Of a stretch of 48,856 nucleotides of DNA, positions 7,883-36,238 are shown one piece after another. A model generated the notes under the pieces. It ran no database searches. It was not told the DNA's origin and worked only from the letters and a program-made list of their open reading frames with translations. The DNA comes from Thermoplasmata archaeon. Its GTDB lineage: Archaea; Thermoplasmatota; Thermoplasmata; Thermoplasmatales; Thermoplasmataceae. The position numbers and the translations under genes are program-made. Position 1 is the stretch's first letter, and the number at the start of each line of letters is the position of its first letter. The stretch lies in assembly GCA_021794355.1 (NCBI GenBank), contig JAJYRA010000050.1, positions 1-48,856 of the forward strand, read 5' to 3'.

Positions 7883-10777
7883 ATGAAGCCAGTGGTAAAG
7901 GAAGATCGAGCAGTAAGCGAAATTATCGGAGCAATTTTATTATTTGCTATTGCAACGGTGTTACTGACAAGTTTTATTCTCTGGTACGTTCCAAGCACGG
8001 GTACAAACAACGATATTTCCTATCAAAGTTCAACACAGAAGGCTTTTTCTTCTCTTGATTCTAAAATTTTAAACCCCAGTCTGACTGCAGGAGGTTCGGT
8101 TTCACAGAGTTTTCCCTTAGGGGTAAGTGGTACACCACCATTTACACCATCTCAGAGCACAAATCTTTATTACTCCAACAATTTTAAAGCGAATTTAAAT
8201 TACAGCATGGATGTAAATTACTCAAATGTTGTAACAAAAAAAATAGTTAATGTTGCGGCCTGTGCAAATGCAAGTTCGAGCAATATCATAAACAATAATT
8301 ATGTATCATCACAGTTTAAGTTTTCTGTCAATTTTCAGGAAACTGGGTTGCCGGCAGGATATTATTGGACAGTTACTCTTGGTGGGGCACAGGAGTCAGC
8401 AAGCCCAATAGGATCGCACTACGCAAGCATCATCTCTTTCAGCCTTTCCAGAGGTACATATAGTTATACCATATCCACCGACAATAAAACCGATAGACCC
8501 AGTCCCGCCGTTGGGACTGTTAAAGTCTCAAATCAGGGGCAAACTGTTCCAGTGGAATTTTACAATGAATTGAGTGGCCAGGGATTAAGTGTTGTTGCTG
8601 CGGCATATGGAAGCACAAAAGTAACTAATAGCATCAATTCAGCGAACTTTGTTGGAGTTGTAACTCAAAGTAACATCTGTGATATTACATATCCAAATTA
8701 TTGGCTTAACAATACCCCAATTCATCCAAGAGGAACACACAGGTTCTATCCACTTGGCTCACAAGAATTCTTTGTTTACCAAAAAAATACTCCTGTCAGC
8801 TACGTTAAATTCTACTTGGAGCCAAATATAGTGTACTACGAGCAACTCTTTCAGGGAAACGCAGGGGTATACGTTTCTATCAGCACTTCCATTTTCGGAA
8901 AAAGTGTACAGAATGGAAACACATCCACTCTCATTCAACCATCAGGGAGCAATTCTTTCACAAGCACAAATTTACTGGAGAATTTATCATTTCCAGGTAG
9001 TGGTCCAGTACTTAATACAAAGGGTAACACTAACACTTATTACTTAAATTTTTACGAGGCAGTTAATGAAAGTAAAACATTTCATAAATATAAAAATCTG
9101 TATGATTCTCTATGTTTTGAAAATAAAACTGCTGGTTATGGATACGGACCAAATGAATTTGTTGCAACAACCACTGATCCAACTATAGCCACAGATAACG
9201 GGGTTTCATACTATTATGAGGCAACTGTTTATGCTACAGAAACTCATTATAATTATTATATCGGTGCATATACTACTGGGTTCCACTTAGCCTCAGAATC
9301 ATTGATTCAAAGTTTCAATAGCTATTATTTCCTGCTGGGATATAACATCCCCAAAGCAACCAGTTCTGGCATCTTGAAGGTTAATGAAACCGGTCTTAAC
9401 ACCACATCACTAAAGAACACGCCATGGCATTTCTATTTGGGGGACAAATGTTACAGTAACGGTTCCAGTTCTTTAATAACCATAAAGGGTCTACCATATT
9501 CTCAATTCAATTATACTGTTCCAGACTATGGAAACTACATTTCAAATCCAGAGAGTGGTTTCATCTCTATTATTCTGAACTTGAGTTCCAATAAAGCAAC
9601 GTATTTAAATATATCATTCTTCCAGCCAATCGGGTCATTACCAAATTATTGGGGGATTTCCGATAAGGGGGAGCAATCGTTCTATCTTAAGTCACCCGCG
9701 AAGGTGAACTATATTACCTTATATCTATACAATTTCACGATCCCTCCAGGGGCGGCTTCAGGGCAAACTCCTACAAATTATATAAGCGTAACACTTTGTA
9801 ATTTAACTAATAACGCACAGGTTTACACAGGCATCACAAAAGTTTCACAAACTGGATGGACACAGATATTCATTACCAGTGCGTCCACTGATCATGCACC
9901 CATAACATTAGGGAAAGGGGGATACACCGTCATAGTAAGTGATGTAAATTCTAAAGGGGAACCTTCTCAGGCCGGTGGCATAGGATGGGGTTTCAGTCTT
10001 ACGGGTGGTTATAATAATTATCTTCAAAGAGTTGAATCAGATACAATGACATCTGAACTTAATATCTCAAAAAATTCAGTCATAACTCCCTATGACTCCA
10101 ATTCAATGAACGTATGTGATGTTACAAATCAATCTTTTATTTTTGGAATAGGATACTATGACCTGTTGGTGTCCCATTTTATTATACCCTATCATATTAC
10201 AAAAAACTTCGTGATACAGGGTTCCATAAATTCCAAGGGCATCACTCAATTTACTATTTCAGAAACATACGTTCTCCAGGATGGAATTATACTGACTGCA
10301 GGTAAAGGTGTCACATATGTTACGGTGAATCCACTCCCCATAAGGATCCTTTCAACAGCAACAGGTGAAATTTCATTGAGTTCCATTGGATATAATATGT
10401 CAATGCAGAAAGGAATATCATCGTCAGTCAGTGGAACAGGAAGCACGATTGTATCCATGAGTCTTTCCAGTACAAAGTTAGTTAATTATACAAAAGGGTT
10501 GTCATACGTATTCAACGGTAAGTTAGGTCAGGTAGTCAGTATAGATTTAAAGAAATTCAATTATACCATCAATTCAAACTATGCGAAATACTGGGCCGAA
10601 ACACTATTTTCGGAGCTTGCCACATCTTCAAGCAGTGGTAACTACAGTAATTTCAGTCTTTTCAGTCATTTTCAATTTCTTCTAAATGGAAATCGAGAGA
10701 AGGCATTCATAAACAGTCCAGTCTCTCTTTACTCAGTAAATATTAAGGATGTAAATCTTTTTGTAGATTCCATTTAA
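7883..10777 (+). CDS. Giant surface protein with type IV pilin-like N-terminus (copy 1)
   Basis: A 964-residue protein. The start MKPVVKEDRAVSEIIGAILL has a short basic leader, a likely prepilin-peptidase (PibD-type) site between Arg9 and Ala10, and then a hydrophobic helix to about residue 35. This is the class III signal of archaeal type IV pilins and archaellins. The remaining 930 residues are rich in Ser, Asn, Tyr and Gly with dozens of N-x-S/T sequons and no further transmembrane segment. Residues 151-164 (FQETGLPAGYYWTV) match a beta-sandwich motif recurrent in acidophile surface proteins, and a degenerate copy lies near residue 497 (VNETGLNTTSL). A paralogue follows after 88 bp. Proposed role: exposed filament subunit or adhesin retained by a pilin helix. 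Function is unknown. Confidence 0.8.
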   Translation: MKPVVKEDRAVSEIIGAILLFAIATVLLTSFILWYVPSTGTNNDISYQSSTQKAFSSLDSKILNPSLTAGGSVSQSFPLGVSGTPPFTPSQSTNLYYSNNFKANLNYSMDVNYSNVVTKKIVNVAACANASSSNIINNNYVSSQFKFSVNFQETGLPAGYYWTVTLGGAQESASPIGSHYASIISFSLSRGTYSYTISTDNKTDRPSPAVGTVKVSNQGQTVPVEFYNELSGQGLSVVAAAYGSTKVTNSINSANFVGVVTQSNICDITYPNYWLNNTPIHPRGTHRFYPLGSQEFFVYQKNTPVSYVKFYLEPNIVYYEQLFQGNAGVYVSISTSIFGKSVQNGNTSTLIQPSGSNSFTSTNLLENLSFPGSGPVLNTKGNTNTYYLNFYEAVNESKTFHKYKNLYDSLCFENKTAGYGYGPNEFVATTTDPTIATDNGVSYYYEATVYATETHYNYYIGAYTTGFHLASESLIQSFNSYYFLLGYNIPKATSSGILKVNETGLNTTSLKNTPWHFYLGDKCYSNGSSSLITIKGLPYSQFNYTVPDYGNYISNPESGFISIILNLSSNKATYLNISFFQPIGSLPNYWGISDKGEQSFYLKSPAKVNYITLYLYNFTIPPGAASGQTPTNYISVTLCNLTNNAQVYTGITKVSQTGWTQIFITSASTDHAPITLGKGGYTVIVSDVNSKGEPSQAGGIGWGFSLTGGYNNYLQRVESDTMTSELNISKNSVITPYDSNSMNVCDVTNQSFIFGIGYYDLLVSHFIIPYHITKNFVIQGSINSKGITQFTISETYVLQDGIILTAGKGVTYVTVNPLPIRILSTATGEISLSSIGYNMSMQKGISSSVSGTGSTIVSMSLSSTKLVNYTKGLSYVFNGKLGQVVSIDLKKFNYTINSNYAKYWAETLFSELATSSSSGNYSNFSLFSHFQFLLNGNREKAFINSPVSLYSVNIKDVNLFVDSI

Positions 10778-10837
10778 TTTTTTATTTTCCTTTCACGTTT
10801 CTACTAAATGTGCAAAAAGGGCAACGGGGATCAAATG

Positions 10838-10847
10838 CTTTATGCTT
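10838..10847 (+). promoter_or_regulatory. TATA-like box of the second pilin-like gene
   Basis: CTTTATGCTT is centred about 24 nt before the ATG at 10866. It suggests that copy 2 has its own promoter in the 88-bp gap rather than depending only on read-through from copy 1. Confidence 0.4.
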
Positions 10848-10865
10848 AATTTACTCAGGGCTTAA

Positions 10866-13748
10866 ATGAAACCGGTCAAGAAACAGGATAAAGCAATAAG
10901 TGAAATCATAGGCGCCATACTTCTTTTTGCCATAGCAAGCGTTCTTCTGACAAGTTTCATATTATGGTATGTTCCAAATACAGGCGCAAATAATGATATT
11001 AGCTATCAGGGAAACACACAGTCTGCATTTTCATCCCTTAACTCAAAAATACTTGGAAATAGTGTGAAAGTTGGGGATCAGATCACGCAAACCATACCCC
11101 TTGGTATTGGAGGTACACCACCCTTTATCCCGGTAAAGAGCACTGATCTGTATTACTCCCACAACTTTAGGGCAAATCTTTCCTATTCATTGCAGGTAAA
11201 TTACACTCACATACTTCATAAAAAAACCAATTCAAAGGTAGCATGTGCAAACACAAGTATTTCTCACATTATGAATAACAACATTGTTGAATCCAAATCG
11301 AAATTCAATGTAATCTTTCAGGAAAATGGTTTAAAGTCTGGATATTACTGGACAGTAAATATAAATGATATCAAGAAATCTTCCAGTTCTACCGATCAGA
11401 TCAGTTTCTGTCTTTCGGAGGGAAGTTATTCCTACAGGATCAGTAGCAGTAAACCCTATTGTGAATCCAATCCTGCAGAAGGAACAATAGATTTGAATAG
11501 CGGAAATTTTGATGTTAACGTTGTTTTCTCAAGTAATGTAAATCAGTCTATAGTCTCGGAAGATTATGGCTCACAATCATCGATCAATTTTGTAAACTCC
11601 GTACATTTAGCATCCTATACAAACACCACTAACTCTAATGCGAACTCTTCAAATTCCAATGAACAACAAATCAACAACTGGCTTGGAAACAAAAGCACAG
11701 GTATGTTCCTGGGAAACAGATTTTATTATAAACTGGCATCACAGGAGTTTAGGGTTGAATATCCCTTCACTTCAGTAAACTTTGTCCAGTTTTATCTTGA
11801 ACCCAACCTGGAGTATGCAAATCAATATTTTCAGGGGAACTCACATATCTATATAAATGTAGGACAATCCCCATGGAGTCATAAAATACCAGGGTCAAGT
11901 GCATATCTGACAATTCCAAAAAATGTTACCGGCTCTTCCTATGGGCAGGGAGGGATTATGGAGAAGGTGAACCTGAAAAATTGTATTTTACTGGGGAGGC
12001 AGCATCCATATGAAAGAAACTACTATCTGAATTTTTGGGAGGCAATAAACGAAAGTTCAAATTCCAAAGCATCTTCCAGCTCCACATTCAGTATAAAATT
12101 CAACAATACGGGAACAGGCTATGGCTATGGGCCCAACGAATTCATTGGAACTGCGAACGACAACTCCCTGAATATTGGAACCGAAGGGGCCATTTCGTGC
12201 ACTGCTAAAATTCATTGTTCCCCTACACATCCACCCATAAATACAAAATCAGATAAAACCAATGATGCATACAATTGCTTTAAAATTACATCTGATGGAG
12301 AAACCTCAAGTAATCCATATTTTTATCGAATAGGATATATCCCCAACTGTGGATCAGATACTCTCTATTTACGGGAAGATGGCCTGAACAGTTCTATGCT
12401 CTCAAAAAAGGCATGGCATATATGTGTGGATGATCAACTGTATAATATCAGGGGACAGGGACTTACCATAAGAAATCTTTCCAACTTCGAATATGAGTTT
12501 TCAGTCCCTCAATATGGGGGAAAAACTCCCACAATTGGTAACGGTTTTATATCTATATCATCCGGAAATAATACCCTTGTGGTGAATTTCATTAATAATA
12601 CAGGTTCATTGGCAAATTATTGGGCCATATCCTATATGGGTGTTCAATCCTTTCATCTGGCAAAAATGACGAAAATCAATTATGTCTCGTTTTATCTTTA
12701 TAATTACTCCAGTTCACCGGCCAGCACCAACCGTGAAAAAAATCCTACGGACCACATTAGAGTTTCCATATACAACACAAATTCAGGTTCGGAAGCATTC
12801 AGGTACAGCAAAACAATGAGAATCAATAATACTGGATATTTCAGGATGGCTTTAAACAAAGGCAAAAAAGGAAACTATTACAACATTTCTCCAGGCATTT
12901 ATTATATCTGCATGAAAGATGTTAATAGAACGGGTTTTCCATCGTACTCCGGTTCCATTGGCTGGGGATTTACGACCATGGGTGGTTATGATAGCTATCT
13001 TCAGGCTGTATGTAATGATAATTTAATGAAAAATGTAAACAATTCAAGAAGCAGTATTGTAACACCATATGATGTCGGGTCCCCATCCATTTTCTCGGCA
13101 TCCAATCAATCATTTATTTATTCCGTAGGATATTCTGTTAAAAGTATAGCTGGAAAAAGTGAATATTCAATCCTCAGCAATTCCTGTGTTGTCATGGGAT
13201 CGATCAATTCCTATGGGCAAACAAGCTTCGTATCCAATGAGCTTTTTGCCCTGCAGGATGGGATTTCTATACAGTGCGGAAAAGGGATAAGTTATGTTCC
13301 AACAAACCCCCTACCTATCAGAATAGAAAACAATCACGGAGCAATATCCCTCATTTCCAATGTTTATAATATGGGTATTCTGTCCAGTATACCCTCATCA
13401 GTTTCAGGTACTGGGAGTACAATGGTATCCATGAATGAAAATTTCAGTAAAAGTCTAAATCTTACCTGTGGGAATGAGTTCTACATACATAATTCAGATC
13501 AGAAAATTACGGGGTTAAGCCTTTTATCCTATCATTACAACGTAAGTACATCCTATTCTGCATACTGGGCAAAAGTTCTATCCATGGAAATGGGAAATAT
13601 CAAGGGTAACCCGTATAATTTCACTGCATTCAGTTCGTTTCATTTTGAAAAATTAGGAAATATGGAGATAATATCCCTTACACACATGGATCATAGGTTA
13701 TATTCAGTCAGTTTCAAGGACATGGGATTTAAAATAGATTCATTATAA
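10866..13748 (+). CDS. Giant surface protein with type IV pilin-like N-terminus (copy 2)
   Basis: A 960-residue paralogue of the preceding protein, colinear with it from end to end. The leader is MKPVKKQDK with a predicted cut before Ala10 (AISEIIGAILLFAIASVLL). Shared landmarks include WYVPNTGANNDISYQ, GGTPPFIP, FQENGLKSGYYWTV at exactly residues 151-164, GYGYGPNEF, SIGWGF, SIVTPYD and NPLPIRI, and both end in a short strand-like VDSI/IDSL tail. Copy 2 has more cysteines than copy 1, unusual for a protein exposed to acid. Same N-terminal anchor logic and many sequons. Tandem duplication followed by strong divergence is evident. The binding partner or filament is unknown. Confidence 0.8.
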   Translation: MKPVKKQDKAISEIIGAILLFAIASVLLTSFILWYVPNTGANNDISYQGNTQSAFSSLNSKILGNSVKVGDQITQTIPLGIGGTPPFIPVKSTDLYYSHNFRANLSYSLQVNYTHILHKKTNSKVACANTSISHIMNNNIVESKSKFNVIFQENGLKSGYYWTVNINDIKKSSSSTDQISFCLSEGSYSYRISSSKPYCESNPAEGTIDLNSGNFDVNVVFSSNVNQSIVSEDYGSQSSINFVNSVHLASYTNTTNSNANSSNSNEQQINNWLGNKSTGMFLGNRFYYKLASQEFRVEYPFTSVNFVQFYLEPNLEYANQYFQGNSHIYINVGQSPWSHKIPGSSAYLTIPKNVTGSSYGQGGIMEKVNLKNCILLGRQHPYERNYYLNFWEAINESSNSKASSSSTFSIKFNNTGTGYGYGPNEFIGTANDNSLNIGTEGAISCTAKIHCSPTHPPINTKSDKTNDAYNCFKITSDGETSSNPYFYRIGYIPNCGSDTLYLREDGLNSSMLSKKAWHICVDDQLYNIRGQGLTIRNLSNFEYEFSVPQYGGKTPTIGNGFISISSGNNTLVVNFINNTGSLANYWAISYMGVQSFHLAKMTKINYVSFYLYNYSSSPASTNREKNPTDHIRVSIYNTNSGSEAFRYSKTMRINNTGYFRMALNKGKKGNYYNISPGIYYICMKDVNRTGFPSYSGSIGWGFTTMGGYDSYLQAVCNDNLMKNVNNSRSSIVTPYDVGSPSIFSASNQSFIYSVGYSVKSIAGKSEYSILSNSCVVMGSINSYGQTSFVSNELFALQDGISIQCGKGISYVPTNPLPIRIENNHGAISLISNVYNMGILSSIPSSVSGTGSTMVSMNENFSKSLNLTCGNEFYIHNSDQKITGLSLLSYHYNVSTSYSAYWAKVLSMEMGNIKGNPYNFTAFSSFHFEKLGNMEIISLTHMDHRLYSVSFKDMGFKIDSL

Positions 13749-25880: not shown

Positions 25881-28298
25881 ATGGGAAAATTAACCTCATA
25901 CATTCTGGGGCTTATTGTGGTGCTTTCCTTTTCGTTCTATTATCTATCTTCCTTTTATAATCCTCTTATTCAGTGGCTTGGACCGGTCATCGGTTCTCCG
26001 TTGATAATTATGGCCGGGTTGTTGCTTTTCCTTGTTGGAGATCCAGTCAAGGACTTTTATCTCATCCCGATCTTTATTATGACTGGACTGGTCATAGGTA
26101 TTGGTTCCAGGAAAGGGACAAAAGCGTTCTTTTCCACCATTACAATATATGGCTCAATTCTCTCTCTTATGGGAATAAGTCTTCTCTATATGTTGTTAGA
26201 TAAGATGGCAATTATCAAGGGTCTTTCATCTGCTTCCTCTTCAGGGGGATCCCTAAGCAATCTTGGATCAACAGGTACTCTTCCGCCCGTTCCTCCGGGG
26301 TCATCCATAAGTGCTATCCTATCCGAACCCCTAGTTGGAAGAGTTTTGAGTGCTTTATCATCCCTTGCTGGAAAAGGGACATCCTCATCCGGAAAATTAT
26401 CACCACCAACATCCATATTATCCTCTCTTGGGTCAACGATCTTTCAATCATTTATTATTTACGGAATAGTTGATTTCCTAATAGTTGCCATAATTGCAGC
26501 ACTGGTCGGGTTTGGTTTAAATCGTGTGGCAAAAAATGGCCCAGTTAAGAAAAAGAAGAATTCTATCCATACGGAAGGAGTAAAGATGGTGGCAGTTATA
26601 ATACTGTGTCTGTTCATGATTATTTCATTCTCAGTTCCAATTTCTGCCGTAGGTTACCATAACGCTTCAGTTCCACAAATAATACCTTACAACGAGGGTG
26701 ACCATGCTAAACCTTTTGCTCAAAATTTTGTTTCAGAAGCCATAAAAAATGGAAGTAATTTTGTATCGTCAGGGGGATCAAAATCCTTCTCATTCACCGG
26801 CGGATTCTTAGGCAAAAGTGGTTCCTTATATCATATTTACGCGGGTTATCAGGAAAATAACTCCATTCCAAGCGGAAAACTGTATGTTAATTCATCCATC
26901 ATATCTGCCTATTTTATTTCCTACAACACTTCAAACCTTCTCCAGCAATTGGGACTGGATAACATTTATATTCCAGTCAATCTCCAGAAACCTCAATTTC
27001 AGGGTCTTTCAAATCTGATTCCAGAGGGCATAATATTATATGCTTTCCATGGAAATTCCACGGCCAATAAGGGCCAGACATTATCTGCCGCAAATAAATT
27101 CGTTTCATCGGTCAACGGAAGTTCGTTGAAAAATATTCTTTCGGTATCCCTTAATCTAAGCAATATGGGTGTAGGTGACTTCACTCTTTATCTTTATTCA
27201 TTCCAGCCAGATTACTCCTCGGTGGAAAACAACCTGATAAATAATTTCCCAAACCTCTATAACACAGGTCAATCAAACATCATATTGAAAGATAACATTG
27301 CAAATGGTAGTTTTAGGCCCATATCAAAGGGCGGGAGTATGAATTCCTTCATAATGGCTGGAGGTTATCTCAACTCATCCACTCTGCTAAGATACGCAGG
27401 CAATCTTGGAAAATTCAAAAGTTCAATCAACAATACCAGTTCTGTCGTTTCATTCACCCTGTCCATGTTCGAGGAGAACAATGTGTATTACTCCTCAGGA
27501 TCTGTTCACACCATAAACCTCTCAGATTTAATAGGGTACAGCCATAATCTTACATTTTCCGGTTCAACACAATCACTGGTAATATCAGGAATACCTGAGA
27601 AAAGTGTGAAGACAACAACGTATATCTTCAACTCATACTTTAATAATGGTTCCTTTGCGGGTGGTATAAACTTTGGAACTGCAACGAACAAGCACATGGT
27701 TACAACTACATTGAATCCTGCTGCAACCACATACACTTCAAACGCAACATTTCCTGCAAAATTGTCCATAAATGAAATTGTTAAACTTCAGGGCAACGGA
27801 TATTATAAAATAATTGTGGGAGTAAAGAACATTGATACGAACCAGCTGACAAATGTATCCATTAATGAGTCTGCATTCAGGACTTACTATCCTCTTTCAA
27901 TGTCCATTATATCAGGACAACCCTTTGAAAAATATTCATCCCCCTTAAACCCTGGAAGTTCTGTATATCTTAACTTTACTGTAAAAGCTGCAAATCCTGG
28001 CAAATATGTTATGGGCAGTCCAAGAATCACCTATGAAAATAACGGGACTGGTGAAATATCCATGGGAACCCAGATTGTACTTACAGGTCCAAATTCTTCT
28101 CTGGTGGATACCATGAACAATATGATACACTTCTATATCGAACAGGAGGCCGCAAGCCTGATCCCGGAAGTTAAGATACTTTCCACTCCTATTGTGGGAT
28201 ATTTCTATGTCTTCGATCTGTTGATTTTATTGTTGTTTGTCGCTGATATATACATCGAAATTAGCTCATATAGAAGATGGAAAAATCAAAAATCATAG
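25881..28298 (+). CDS. Large membrane protein with big extracellular domain, unknown function
   Basis: An 805-residue protein without a family I can name. Residues 5-105 carry about four transmembrane helices. Residues 113-185 are a Ser/Gly/Pro linker. Helices follow at about 193-214 and 234-256, the latter resembling a signal-anchor (VKMVAVIILCLFMIISFSVP) after the basic stretch KKKKN. An ectodomain of about 500 residues rich in Asn, Ser and Tyr with many sequons comes next, then a last helix at about 774-792 and a short basic tail. The layout suggests two modules fused: a multipass N-terminal half and a secreted half anchored at both ends. A TATA box lies 25 nt upstream. Confidence 0.75.
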   Translation: MGKLTSYILGLIVVLSFSFYYLSSFYNPLIQWLGPVIGSPLIIMAGLLLFLVGDPVKDFYLIPIFIMTGLVIGIGSRKGTKAFFSTITIYGSILSLMGISLLYMLLDKMAIIKGLSSASSSGGSLSNLGSTGTLPPVPPGSSISAILSEPLVGRVLSALSSLAGKGTSSSGKLSPPTSILSSLGSTIFQSFIIYGIVDFLIVAIIAALVGFGLNRVAKNGPVKKKKNSIHTEGVKMVAVIILCLFMIISFSVPISAVGYHNASVPQIIPYNEGDHAKPFAQNFVSEAIKNGSNFVSSGGSKSFSFTGGFLGKSGSLYHIYAGYQENNSIPSGKLYVNSSIISAYFISYNTSNLLQQLGLDNIYIPVNLQKPQFQGLSNLIPEGIILYAFHGNSTANKGQTLSAANKFVSSVNGSSLKNILSVSLNLSNMGVGDFTLYLYSFQPDYSSVENNLINNFPNLYNTGQSNIILKDNIANGSFRPISKGGSMNSFIMAGGYLNSSTLLRYAGNLGKFKSSINNTSSVVSFTLSMFEENNVYYSSGSVHTINLSDLIGYSHNLTFSGSTQSLVISGIPEKSVKTTTYIFNSYFNNGSFAGGINFGTATNKHMVTTTLNPAATTYTSNATFPAKLSINEIVKLQGNGYYKIIVGVKNIDTNQLTNVSINESAFRTYYPLSMSIISGQPFEKYSSPLNPGSSVYLNFTVKAANPGKYVMGSPRITYENNGTGEISMGTQIVLTGPNSSLVDTMNNMIHFYIEQEAASLIPEVKILSTPIVGYFYVFDLLILLLFVADIYIEISSYRRWKNQKS

Positions 28299-34645: not shown

Positions 34646-36109
34646 TTATTTTATAAGTTTTCTATAGACAAGGCTTCCCAAATATGTCAATACCACTATG
34701 ACTATTCCTGCTATTATCCCATAGGTGTAGTAAAAAAGAGTTGGTATTTTGCTGAATAAAATACTCTGTGTTATGAAAGAGGCATACATTGTGATCGAAC
34801 CTGATGCACCAGTATAGCCGCTGGGTGCAAATGTAGTATAATTATATGTGCCTGCCATTACCAGAAACTCAACTTCGTTGGATGTGGTATTTATGGAAGT
34901 TGAACCAAGCTTGATACCCCATGTGCTGTTTGTTGGAAGACCACTTTCCTCAAATTCTACCCAATTATATGTGTTGTTCTGGAATTGGTAGGTATAGTTG
35001 ATATAAGAACCGTATACTGAGCTTGAAGCACCTCCAAATAGAACGATTGTGCTATTTGCATTAAGAATGGACATGGACTGACCATATTCAGATTTTGGTG
35101 CCTTAATATTCAACTGACTCCAGGTCATGGTTACCGGGGAAAATGACCAGCTCTGATCTGTTGGCGTGCCCTTTGTATTCACCCCACCATACAGAAGAAG
35201 GAAATTATTGAAGGAGAAATATTTTAGGTGTGAGAATGCAAGTGCACCAGGATTCGTTGAGAGATTTATCTGCGTCCAGTTTTTAGTGGTCACGTTTAAC
35301 ATCCATGTAGCGCTTGAATATGTTCCGTTATAGCCACCGTACAATATCATATTACCATCAGGTAAAGCTTCCATGGTTGATCCTTCCATTGCCGGTATAC
35401 TCCCGTTGGTTTTCATTACTGTCCATGCGTTATCCTTAAATATCCATGTGCTGTTGGAATATCCATTGGCAGTTTTCCCTCCAAATAATACTATGGAACC
35501 AATGGATGAAGAATATGCGGATGCTGCAAAGGCTCTTGCACTTGGCGCTTTAAGAATACCTCTCAGTGGTGTCCATGTAAACCCTGTGAAGATCCATGTT
35601 TGATTTGTCACAACAAGTTTACCTGATGAAGTTAGGTTCTCTCCACCGAAGAGTACTATATCTTCTCCCCTTGGGTAAAAATTCATGGATGTTCCAAGAA
35701 GTCCAGGTATACTGCTTGAGGTGGTCAGTTTGGTCCATGTCTGGGAATTATAAATCCATGTTTGGTTCATTGTTTTGTTAACAAGTTTGTAAGAAGTGTT
35801 TTTTCCATGCGTAACTGTTTCATTTACCACAGTCATCCCACCGAACATTATTGCTTCCTTATCTGGAGTGAAGCAGGCCATGGAACTATTACTCACAGGT
35901 ACTGGTGCAACCGAAGAGGTGTCGTTCATCCACTGATATTTATATTCAGTTTGATTCTGCACAACACTGGGGGTAACTGACATGGTATTGGTGTGGTTCG
36001 TGGAATTGCCTGCCATTGAAAACGAAAACGTGAAAACTATTACTGTAAATAAGACAACTGCCATAACTGCAATCCTCATAAATCCGTCTTTTCTTTTCCC
36101 AGAAGTCAT
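34646..36109 (-). CDS. Secreted kelch-repeat surface protein with C-terminal membrane anchor
   Basis: About 487 residues starting MTSGKRKDGFMRIAVMAVVL. A signal-peptide-like helix is followed by about six kelch blades, each with a hydrophobic-GG core (MFGGMTV, LFGGENL, LFGGKTA, LYGGYNG, LYGGVNT, LFGGASS) and a W-x-F/L strand, enough for a beta-propeller. A beta-sandwich module follows, opening WVEFEESGLPTNSTWGIKLG, related to the motif in the giant pilin-like proteins. A final helix (YGIIAGIVIVVLTYLGSLVY) and basic tail anchor it. An ATG 33 nt further upstream is less likely because the TATA-like TTTATTAA (36133-36140) is 27 nt from the chosen start. Confidence 0.82.
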   Translation of the reverse strand: MTSGKRKDGFMRIAVMAVVLFTVIVFTFSFSMAGNSTNHTNTMSVTPSVVQNQTEYKYQWMNDTSSVAPVPVSNSSMACFTPDKEAIMFGGMTVVNETVTHGKNTSYKLVNKTMNQTWIYNSQTWTKLTTSSSIPGLLGTSMNFYPRGEDIVLFGGENLTSSGKLVVTNQTWIFTGFTWTPLRGILKAPSARAFAASAYSSSIGSIVLFGGKTANGYSNSTWIFKDNAWTVMKTNGSIPAMEGSTMEALPDGNMILYGGYNGTYSSATWMLNVTTKNWTQINLSTNPGALAFSHLKYFSFNNFLLLYGGVNTKGTPTDQSWSFSPVTMTWSQLNIKAPKSEYGQSMSILNANSTIVLFGGASSSVYGSYINYTYQFQNNTYNWVEFEESGLPTNSTWGIKLGSTSINTTSNEVEFLVMAGTYNYTTFAPSGYTGASGSITMYASFITQSILFSKIPTLFYYTYGIIAGIVIVVLTYLGSLVYRKLIK

Positions 36110-36238
36110 TAAAAAAGTAATATGGAAATCATTAATAAACATTGCATTGAATGAACCAGTATGGCTTTATTTTGGGATAATTCAATTCAATGAAAGTTAA
36201 TTTTTTCTAAAAATAGGAATGATTGTTTCAAAAAAATC

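Follow-up and report, generated by a model that had tools for sequence, protein, structure and literature searches.

Tandem giant proteins of a Thermoplasmatales archaeon combine a small pilin-like chassis with a large cargo inserted at a fixed point

The gene pair and its leaders

The stretch of DNA analysed here (the window) covers 48,856 nucleotides of a Thermoplasmata archaeon (assembly GCA_021794355.1, contig JAJYRA010000050.1) and makes up contig C75 in a genome of 2.05 Mb (G000). It carries two adjacent genes, A and B, whose products of 964 and 960 residues consist of a small pilin-like chassis interrupted by a large inserted cargo. A first-pass annotation made from the sequence had described this pair, and both reading frames were recovered as it gave them. 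The relatives used for comparison included a near one, Cuniculiplasma sp. (L076), and, from the sister genus, E-plasma (L077).

7883..10777, + strand: gene A, modular pilin-like protein of 964 amino acids (aa) (open reading frame; homologues found in Cuniculiplasma and a single sister genus)
7883..7912, + strand: A, class III leader MKPVVKEDRA, with prepilin-peptidase cleavage predicted to follow Ala10 (motif; comparison with CdiPB)
10866..13748, + strand: gene B, tandem paralogue of A with 960 aa, separated from it by 88 bp (open reading frame; 41% identity over the full length)
10866..10895, + strand: B, class III leader MKPVKKQDKA (motif, as in A)

A protein search aligned A with B across residues 1-964 at 41% identity and an E value of 3e-189, so the pairing is not by chance, and the earlier description of a full-length, colinear and strongly diverged duplication holds. 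The divergence is uneven, with 82% identity in residues 1-60 and about 27-40% over most of the insert, and nucleotide identity beyond the first 60 codons is 45-57%.

The leaders, with the predicted cut shown as a slash, read MKPVVKEDRA/VSEIIG in A and MKPVKKQDKA/ISEIIG in B. When set against the leader of CdiPB, a pilin of Cuniculiplasma, this K/R-A, V/I-S-E-I-I-G pattern suggests a class III signal peptide of the archaeal type IV pilin kind. The first-pass annotation placed cleavage before Ala10; since the solved mature chain of CdiPB (PDB 8rey) begins at the Val following the equivalent Ala, the cut is instead expected one residue later, after Ala10. The electron cryomicroscopy paper on the CdiP pilus reports that CdiPB loses residues 1-11 (PMC12448462). 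Each protein has a single hydrophobic segment above the membrane threshold (best window from residue 14), and a hydrophobicity scan found no second one downstream, which agrees with the leader, single helix and missing second anchor reported before. With a pilin-type leader and no second hydrophobic segment, A and B do not have the architecture of a protein with a Sec signal and a C-terminal anchor. They had also been called rich in sequons, which is true relative to most proteins of the window (2.5 per 100 residues against less than 1) but not relative to their own Asn/Ser/Thr-rich composition, as the 24 sequons lie near the 18.9 ± 3.6 (A) and 20.8 ± 3.8 (B) of shuffled sequences.

A pilin chassis with a fixed graft point

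In an order-wide search many genomes matched solely at residues ~1-115 and ~770-963, and the proteins concerned have ~330 aa. An alignment of eight giants with seventeen of these short proteins showed that the middle of the giants is one uninterrupted block that the short proteins do not have. A and B are not giant throughout, but are a ~330-aa pilin carrying a ~650-aa cargo at one loop. Profile hidden Markov models (HMMs) of the two chassis halves were used to map 24 long chassis proteins, and the graft point was constant in all 24: the N-terminal half ends at residue 111-132 and the C-terminal half resumes near the same core position, while the insert between them ranges from about 340 to 940 residues.

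7883..8227, + strand: A, N-terminal half of the chassis, residues 1-115 (core-family HMM, E 1.3e-41, residues 6-115)
7907..8068, + strand: A, single N-terminal helix, residues 9-62 (AlphaFold model, predicted local distance difference test (pLDDT) mostly 82-89)
8228..10189, + strand: A, inserted cargo, residues 116-769 (absent en bloc from ~330-aa relatives; HMM graft point; between strands 93-128 and 751-786)
10190..10774, + strand: A, C-terminal half of the chassis, residues 770-964 (core-family HMM, E 2.2e-24, residues 770-959)
10866..11207, + strand: B, N-terminal half of the chassis, residues 1-114 (HMM, E 2.9e-38, residues 6-114)
11208..13169, + strand: B, inserted cargo, residues 115-768 (graft point as in A)
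13170..13745, + strand: B, C-terminal half of the chassis, residues 769-960 (HMM, E 9.8e-19, residues 769-957)

AlphaFold models a 325-aa relative (pLDDT 86.8) with a 55-residue N-terminal helix (14-68) followed by a beta head, in which a hairpin (strands 111-124 and 128-141) contains the graft point. In the model of A the same hairpin is stretched into strands 93-128 and 751-786 with the cargo held between them; the prediction is good for the chassis and less so for much of the cargo (mean pLDDT 69.3, predicted TM-score 0.41). The long predicted helix and beta-rich head of A (9-62) and of the relative (14-68) are the arrangement that would be expected of a pilin. Raynaud et al. (2021) describe modular pilins as a pilin module joined to a module foreign to type IV pili (T4P), and chassis plus inserted cargo conforms to this description.

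The cargo of A and B has a repeating layout, in which each of two immunoglobulin (Ig)-like modules of an ETGL type is followed by a beta-rich module.

8297..8566, + strand: A, cargo module 1 at residues 139-228, an Ig-like 'ETGLPxG' domain (with matches in several of the genome's surface proteins; homologous to module 3)
8738..9352, + strand: A, cargo module 2 at residues 286-490, beta-rich (model, confidence low in parts)
9368..9637, + strand: A, cargo module 3 at residues 496-585, the second domain of ETGL type (homologous to module 1)
9650..10186, + strand: A, cargo module 4 at residues 590-768, beta-rich and sandwich-like (model)

Modules 1 and 3 are homologous (hhalign probability 97.8); for modules 2 and 4, compared as a possible repeat, the probability was 15. 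Protein searches found the ETGL module again in several surface proteins that the genome encodes besides A and B. A sequence search of solved structures with A gave no match; a fold search with the full-length model returned a weak likeness to multi-domain Ig-like adhesins and to pilins (best E 1.3e-4, low TM-scores), together with short matches to beta-sandwich domains at E values of about 0.015-0.04. The idea that A and B are exoenzymes was dropped, as the few enzymes listed in the fold search match weakly or over a short stretch and the leader is pilin-type; these fold matches are too faint to put a name to the cargo. An ordinary exoenzyme fold behind a normal Sec signal had been named in advance as the result that would overturn a pilin assignment; no such fold emerged from the fold search of A.

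Other members of the family carry different cargo. Inserts in other genera hold Lactonase/NHL-type beta-propellers (Pfam; relatives of 690-1250 aa), the cargo of one chassis protein includes a DUF2341 match below threshold (E 0.0037), and a distant homologue in genome G022 (L133:6356-7612, + strand) contains an inserted Laminin_G_3 lectin (E 3.7e-26), by eye in another loop. This last gene sits at a contig end, and pilus ATPases begin another contig of the same genome. By Pfam matches, recognised functional cargo domains are found in relatives, as propellers and Laminin_G_3, and not in A or B. Same-strand runs of three chassis genes occur at seven loci in four genera, encoding proteins of about 330, 1000-1250 and 700 aa in six of the seven and of 646, 987 and 687 aa in G077.

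Two further surface or sequon-bearing proteins of the window were recorded. The first (34646-36142, - strand) is a 498-aa surface protein that combines a Kelch-type beta-propeller with an ETGL-like module (FEESGLPTNSTWGIKLG), an N-terminal Sec-like signal, a C-terminal hydrophobic anchor and 4.6 sequons per 100 residues. The second (25881-28298, + strand) has 805 aa, 2.6 sequons per 100 residues and no Pfam match.

Pilus machinery, interpretation and alternatives

Chassis genes and pilus ATPases occur together. Of the genomes of the family, 47 carry a chassis together with a strong T2SSE ATPase match, 19 lack both, 10 show the ATPase alone and one the chassis alone; by genus, strong ATPase matches are present in 15 of 15 genera with a chassis and in none of the four without, where matches are weak (E about 1e-5) or missing. 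In three genomes of outgroup families (G006, G008 and G005) a homologue of 290-300 aa heads a gene order of pilin, ATPase, platform, platform, ATPase. A chassis profile restricted to the head, with the helix removed, recovered those of G006 and G008 at E values of about 1e-8 and that of G022 at 1.6e-5.

The genome that carries A and B has an ATPase/platform cluster on contig C74 and also encodes a CdiPB-like pilin. A candidate prepilin peptidase (L099, contig C5, 10087-10800), reached through weak matches in sister genomes and then a protein search, is a 238-residue frame with both catalytic Asp motifs, D-H-K-K-R and G-V-G-D. It matches the archaeal peptidase A24 C-terminal model weakly (E 0.014, below Pfam cut-offs), and Pfam Peptidase_A24 has no match in the genome at E <= 0.001. 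Assembly machine and putative peptidase are accordingly both encoded. Because the candidate is too divergent for the Pfam A24 cut-off, a survey based on Pfam alone would score this genome as peptidase-free. The genome also encodes a 356-aa pilin (L086:5324-6394, - strand) with a Pilin_N match above cut-off, which adjoins purB and occupies the position held in other genera by the ~330-aa chassis; it is not among the chassis-head matches listed.

The reading that we favour, and hold to be reasonably probable, is that the pair are modular type IV pilins of the minor kind, which present adhesive cargo on the pilus, probably at its tip. Once a prepilin peptidase had cut off the 10-residue leader, the long helix would let the proteins enter a pilus machine of the CdiP type (ATPases E1/E2, with a platform split into Fa and Fb). 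The beta-hairpin would hold out the ~650-residue cargo, which could then attach to a surface, to a partner cell or to a polymer. As minor pilins A and B would lie at or near the tip, the most likely position in view of the bulk of the cargo, a suggestion drawn from size only, and would present two diverged versions of it. The first-pass proposal of pilin-type processing and a place in, or capping, a pilus is in this respect the best supported, by the helix and head model, the ATPase co-occurrence, the operon-linked homologues, the candidate peptidase and the lack of an exoenzyme fold; its suggestion of a giant filament subunit fares less well, as a major structural role is unlikely.

Several results weigh against this reading. 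Both pilin models scored the proteins below cut-off, PF07790 (the Pfam pilin N-terminal model) at 18.7 bits for A and 13.2 for B against 25.2, and TIGR02537 (NCBIfam) at 13.7 and 11.6 against 20, so the leader alone would not have been decisive. A fold search with the chassis model gave no PDB match at E <= 0.001, to a solved pilin head or otherwise; none of the modules of A or B has a Pfam match, and in the AlphaFold model the cargo reaches moderate confidence only. As to co-occurrence, the T2SSE model (PF00437) can also detect archaellum ATPases, the genera counted are not independent samples, and four of 12 genomes of the genus have a strong pilus ATPase but no clear chassis match, these four being incomplete metagenome-assembled genomes. 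The operon-linked homologues are distant, with that of G005 marginal (E 0.021) and that of G033 unsupported on the head alone.

The strongest alternative, though in our view a rather unlikely one, is that A and B are class III-leader proteins kept in the membrane, which would help to build the unordered exterior protein layer of Cuniculiplasma, which has no surface layer (S-layer), outside any pilus. The helix by itself could anchor them, the ETGL module is common among surface proteins of the genome, and the available sections of PMC12448462 assign no proteins to the exterior layer. However, the other large surface proteins here start, by eye, with a Sec-like signal that A and B do not have, and the Kelch protein has a C-terminal anchor, which they also lack. 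The family distribution moreover tracks the pilus ATPases, and homologues head a pilus operon. Much less likely still is that A and B are the major subunits of a second, thick type of filament; a pilin-like chassis with cargo on an extended hairpin would, in the model, allow packing along a filament, but relatives bear very different cargos on the same chassis.

The history of the pair bears on the first-pass suggestion of ongoing selection for antigenic or partner variation. The giants are confined to Cuniculiplasma and one sister genus in the order-wide search, and a phylum search (genomes 90% complete or better, E <= 1e-8) gave clear chassis matches within this order and short or weak ones outside it. 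The A/B pair lies in the same genomic place in the window species and in the species of G052, and the two B copies group with support of 100/100, a grouping made less sure by long branches and odd composition. Given this grouping and the shared synteny, A and B appear, from sequence comparison, to have separated before these two species split. A conserved tandem pair was thus found in two species, but the other readable Cuniculiplasma relatives have one copy and a sister-genus genome, G071, carries two copies on separate contigs; in G048, a complete genome of the genus, a masked stretch covers most of the locus. A recent duplication under diversifying selection could account for the longer branches of the B-type sequences (0.92 and 1.35 against 0.47 and 0.55) but is highly improbable, as the duplication appears to predate the species split and the divergence (45-57% nucleotide identity) is too great for a selection or rate test; the first-pass suggestion of ongoing selection is thus not supported.

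Comparison with known systems

One close system is the CdiP pilus of Cuniculiplasma divulgatum (CdiPB, PDB 8rey; PMC12448462), which comes from the same genus and has the same leader type, and whose machine of two ATPases and a split platform is also present in the window genome. CdiPB is a major pilin of 135 residues, whereas A and B have 960-964. A genome paper of 2016 reported four major-pilin genes in C. divulgatum, with locus tags that are not mapped to A or B (PMC5155288). Gaines et al. describe CdiP pili that end in hooks, and also an exterior protein layer; the available sections of their paper name no protein for either and make no mention of A or B (PMC12448462). We regard A and B as candidates for the hooks and as less likely ones for the layer. 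A broader and more doubtful proposal is that a single pilin chassis, whose graft site is fixed, serves the Thermoplasmatales as an interchangeable presentation platform, and that A and B of Cuniculiplasma build the hook at the pilus end. If the favoured reading is right, the family supplies a candidate protein for that hook, and the graft point would be a natural fusion site for the display of large proteins on archaeal pili.

Among archaea, the DUF2341 proteins are also large, T4P-linked and predicted to be tip adhesins (Makarova et al. 2016, PMC4858521), and one chassis cargo has the sub-threshold DUF2341 match given above. They are, however, separate proteins encoded in the T4P locus, while A and B hold cargo and pilin in one chain. 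ComZ of Thermus thermophilus likewise has a large beta domain inserted in a pilin fold and has been argued to be restricted to the tip (PMC6561018). Its cargo is a single beta-solenoid, in contrast to the several cargos that share one graft point here; ComZ gave no sequence match to A and was not among the listed fold matches of the chassis or of A.

A parallel in design is with PilB and PilC of Streptococcus sanguinis, bacterial modular pilins in which a large functional module is placed on a small pilin module and a tip location has been proposed (PMC8179133). Concanavalin A-like lectin modules (PF13385) are known from bacterial modular pilins, and one distant homologue of the present family has such a module. 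The A/B family differs in being archaeal, in its head and in the larger size of its cargo (about 340-940 residues). Modular pilins are established in bacteria, and in the literature searched no family of archaeal pilins had giant cargo that is interchangeable at a fixed site; the evidence favours an archaeal counterpart, whose chassis takes varied cargo at a single loop. The module of PilB comes after the pilin domain, while the cargo of A and B is inserted mid-head at one fixed hairpin, and if our reading is right archaea came to the modular-pilin solution by a different geometry.
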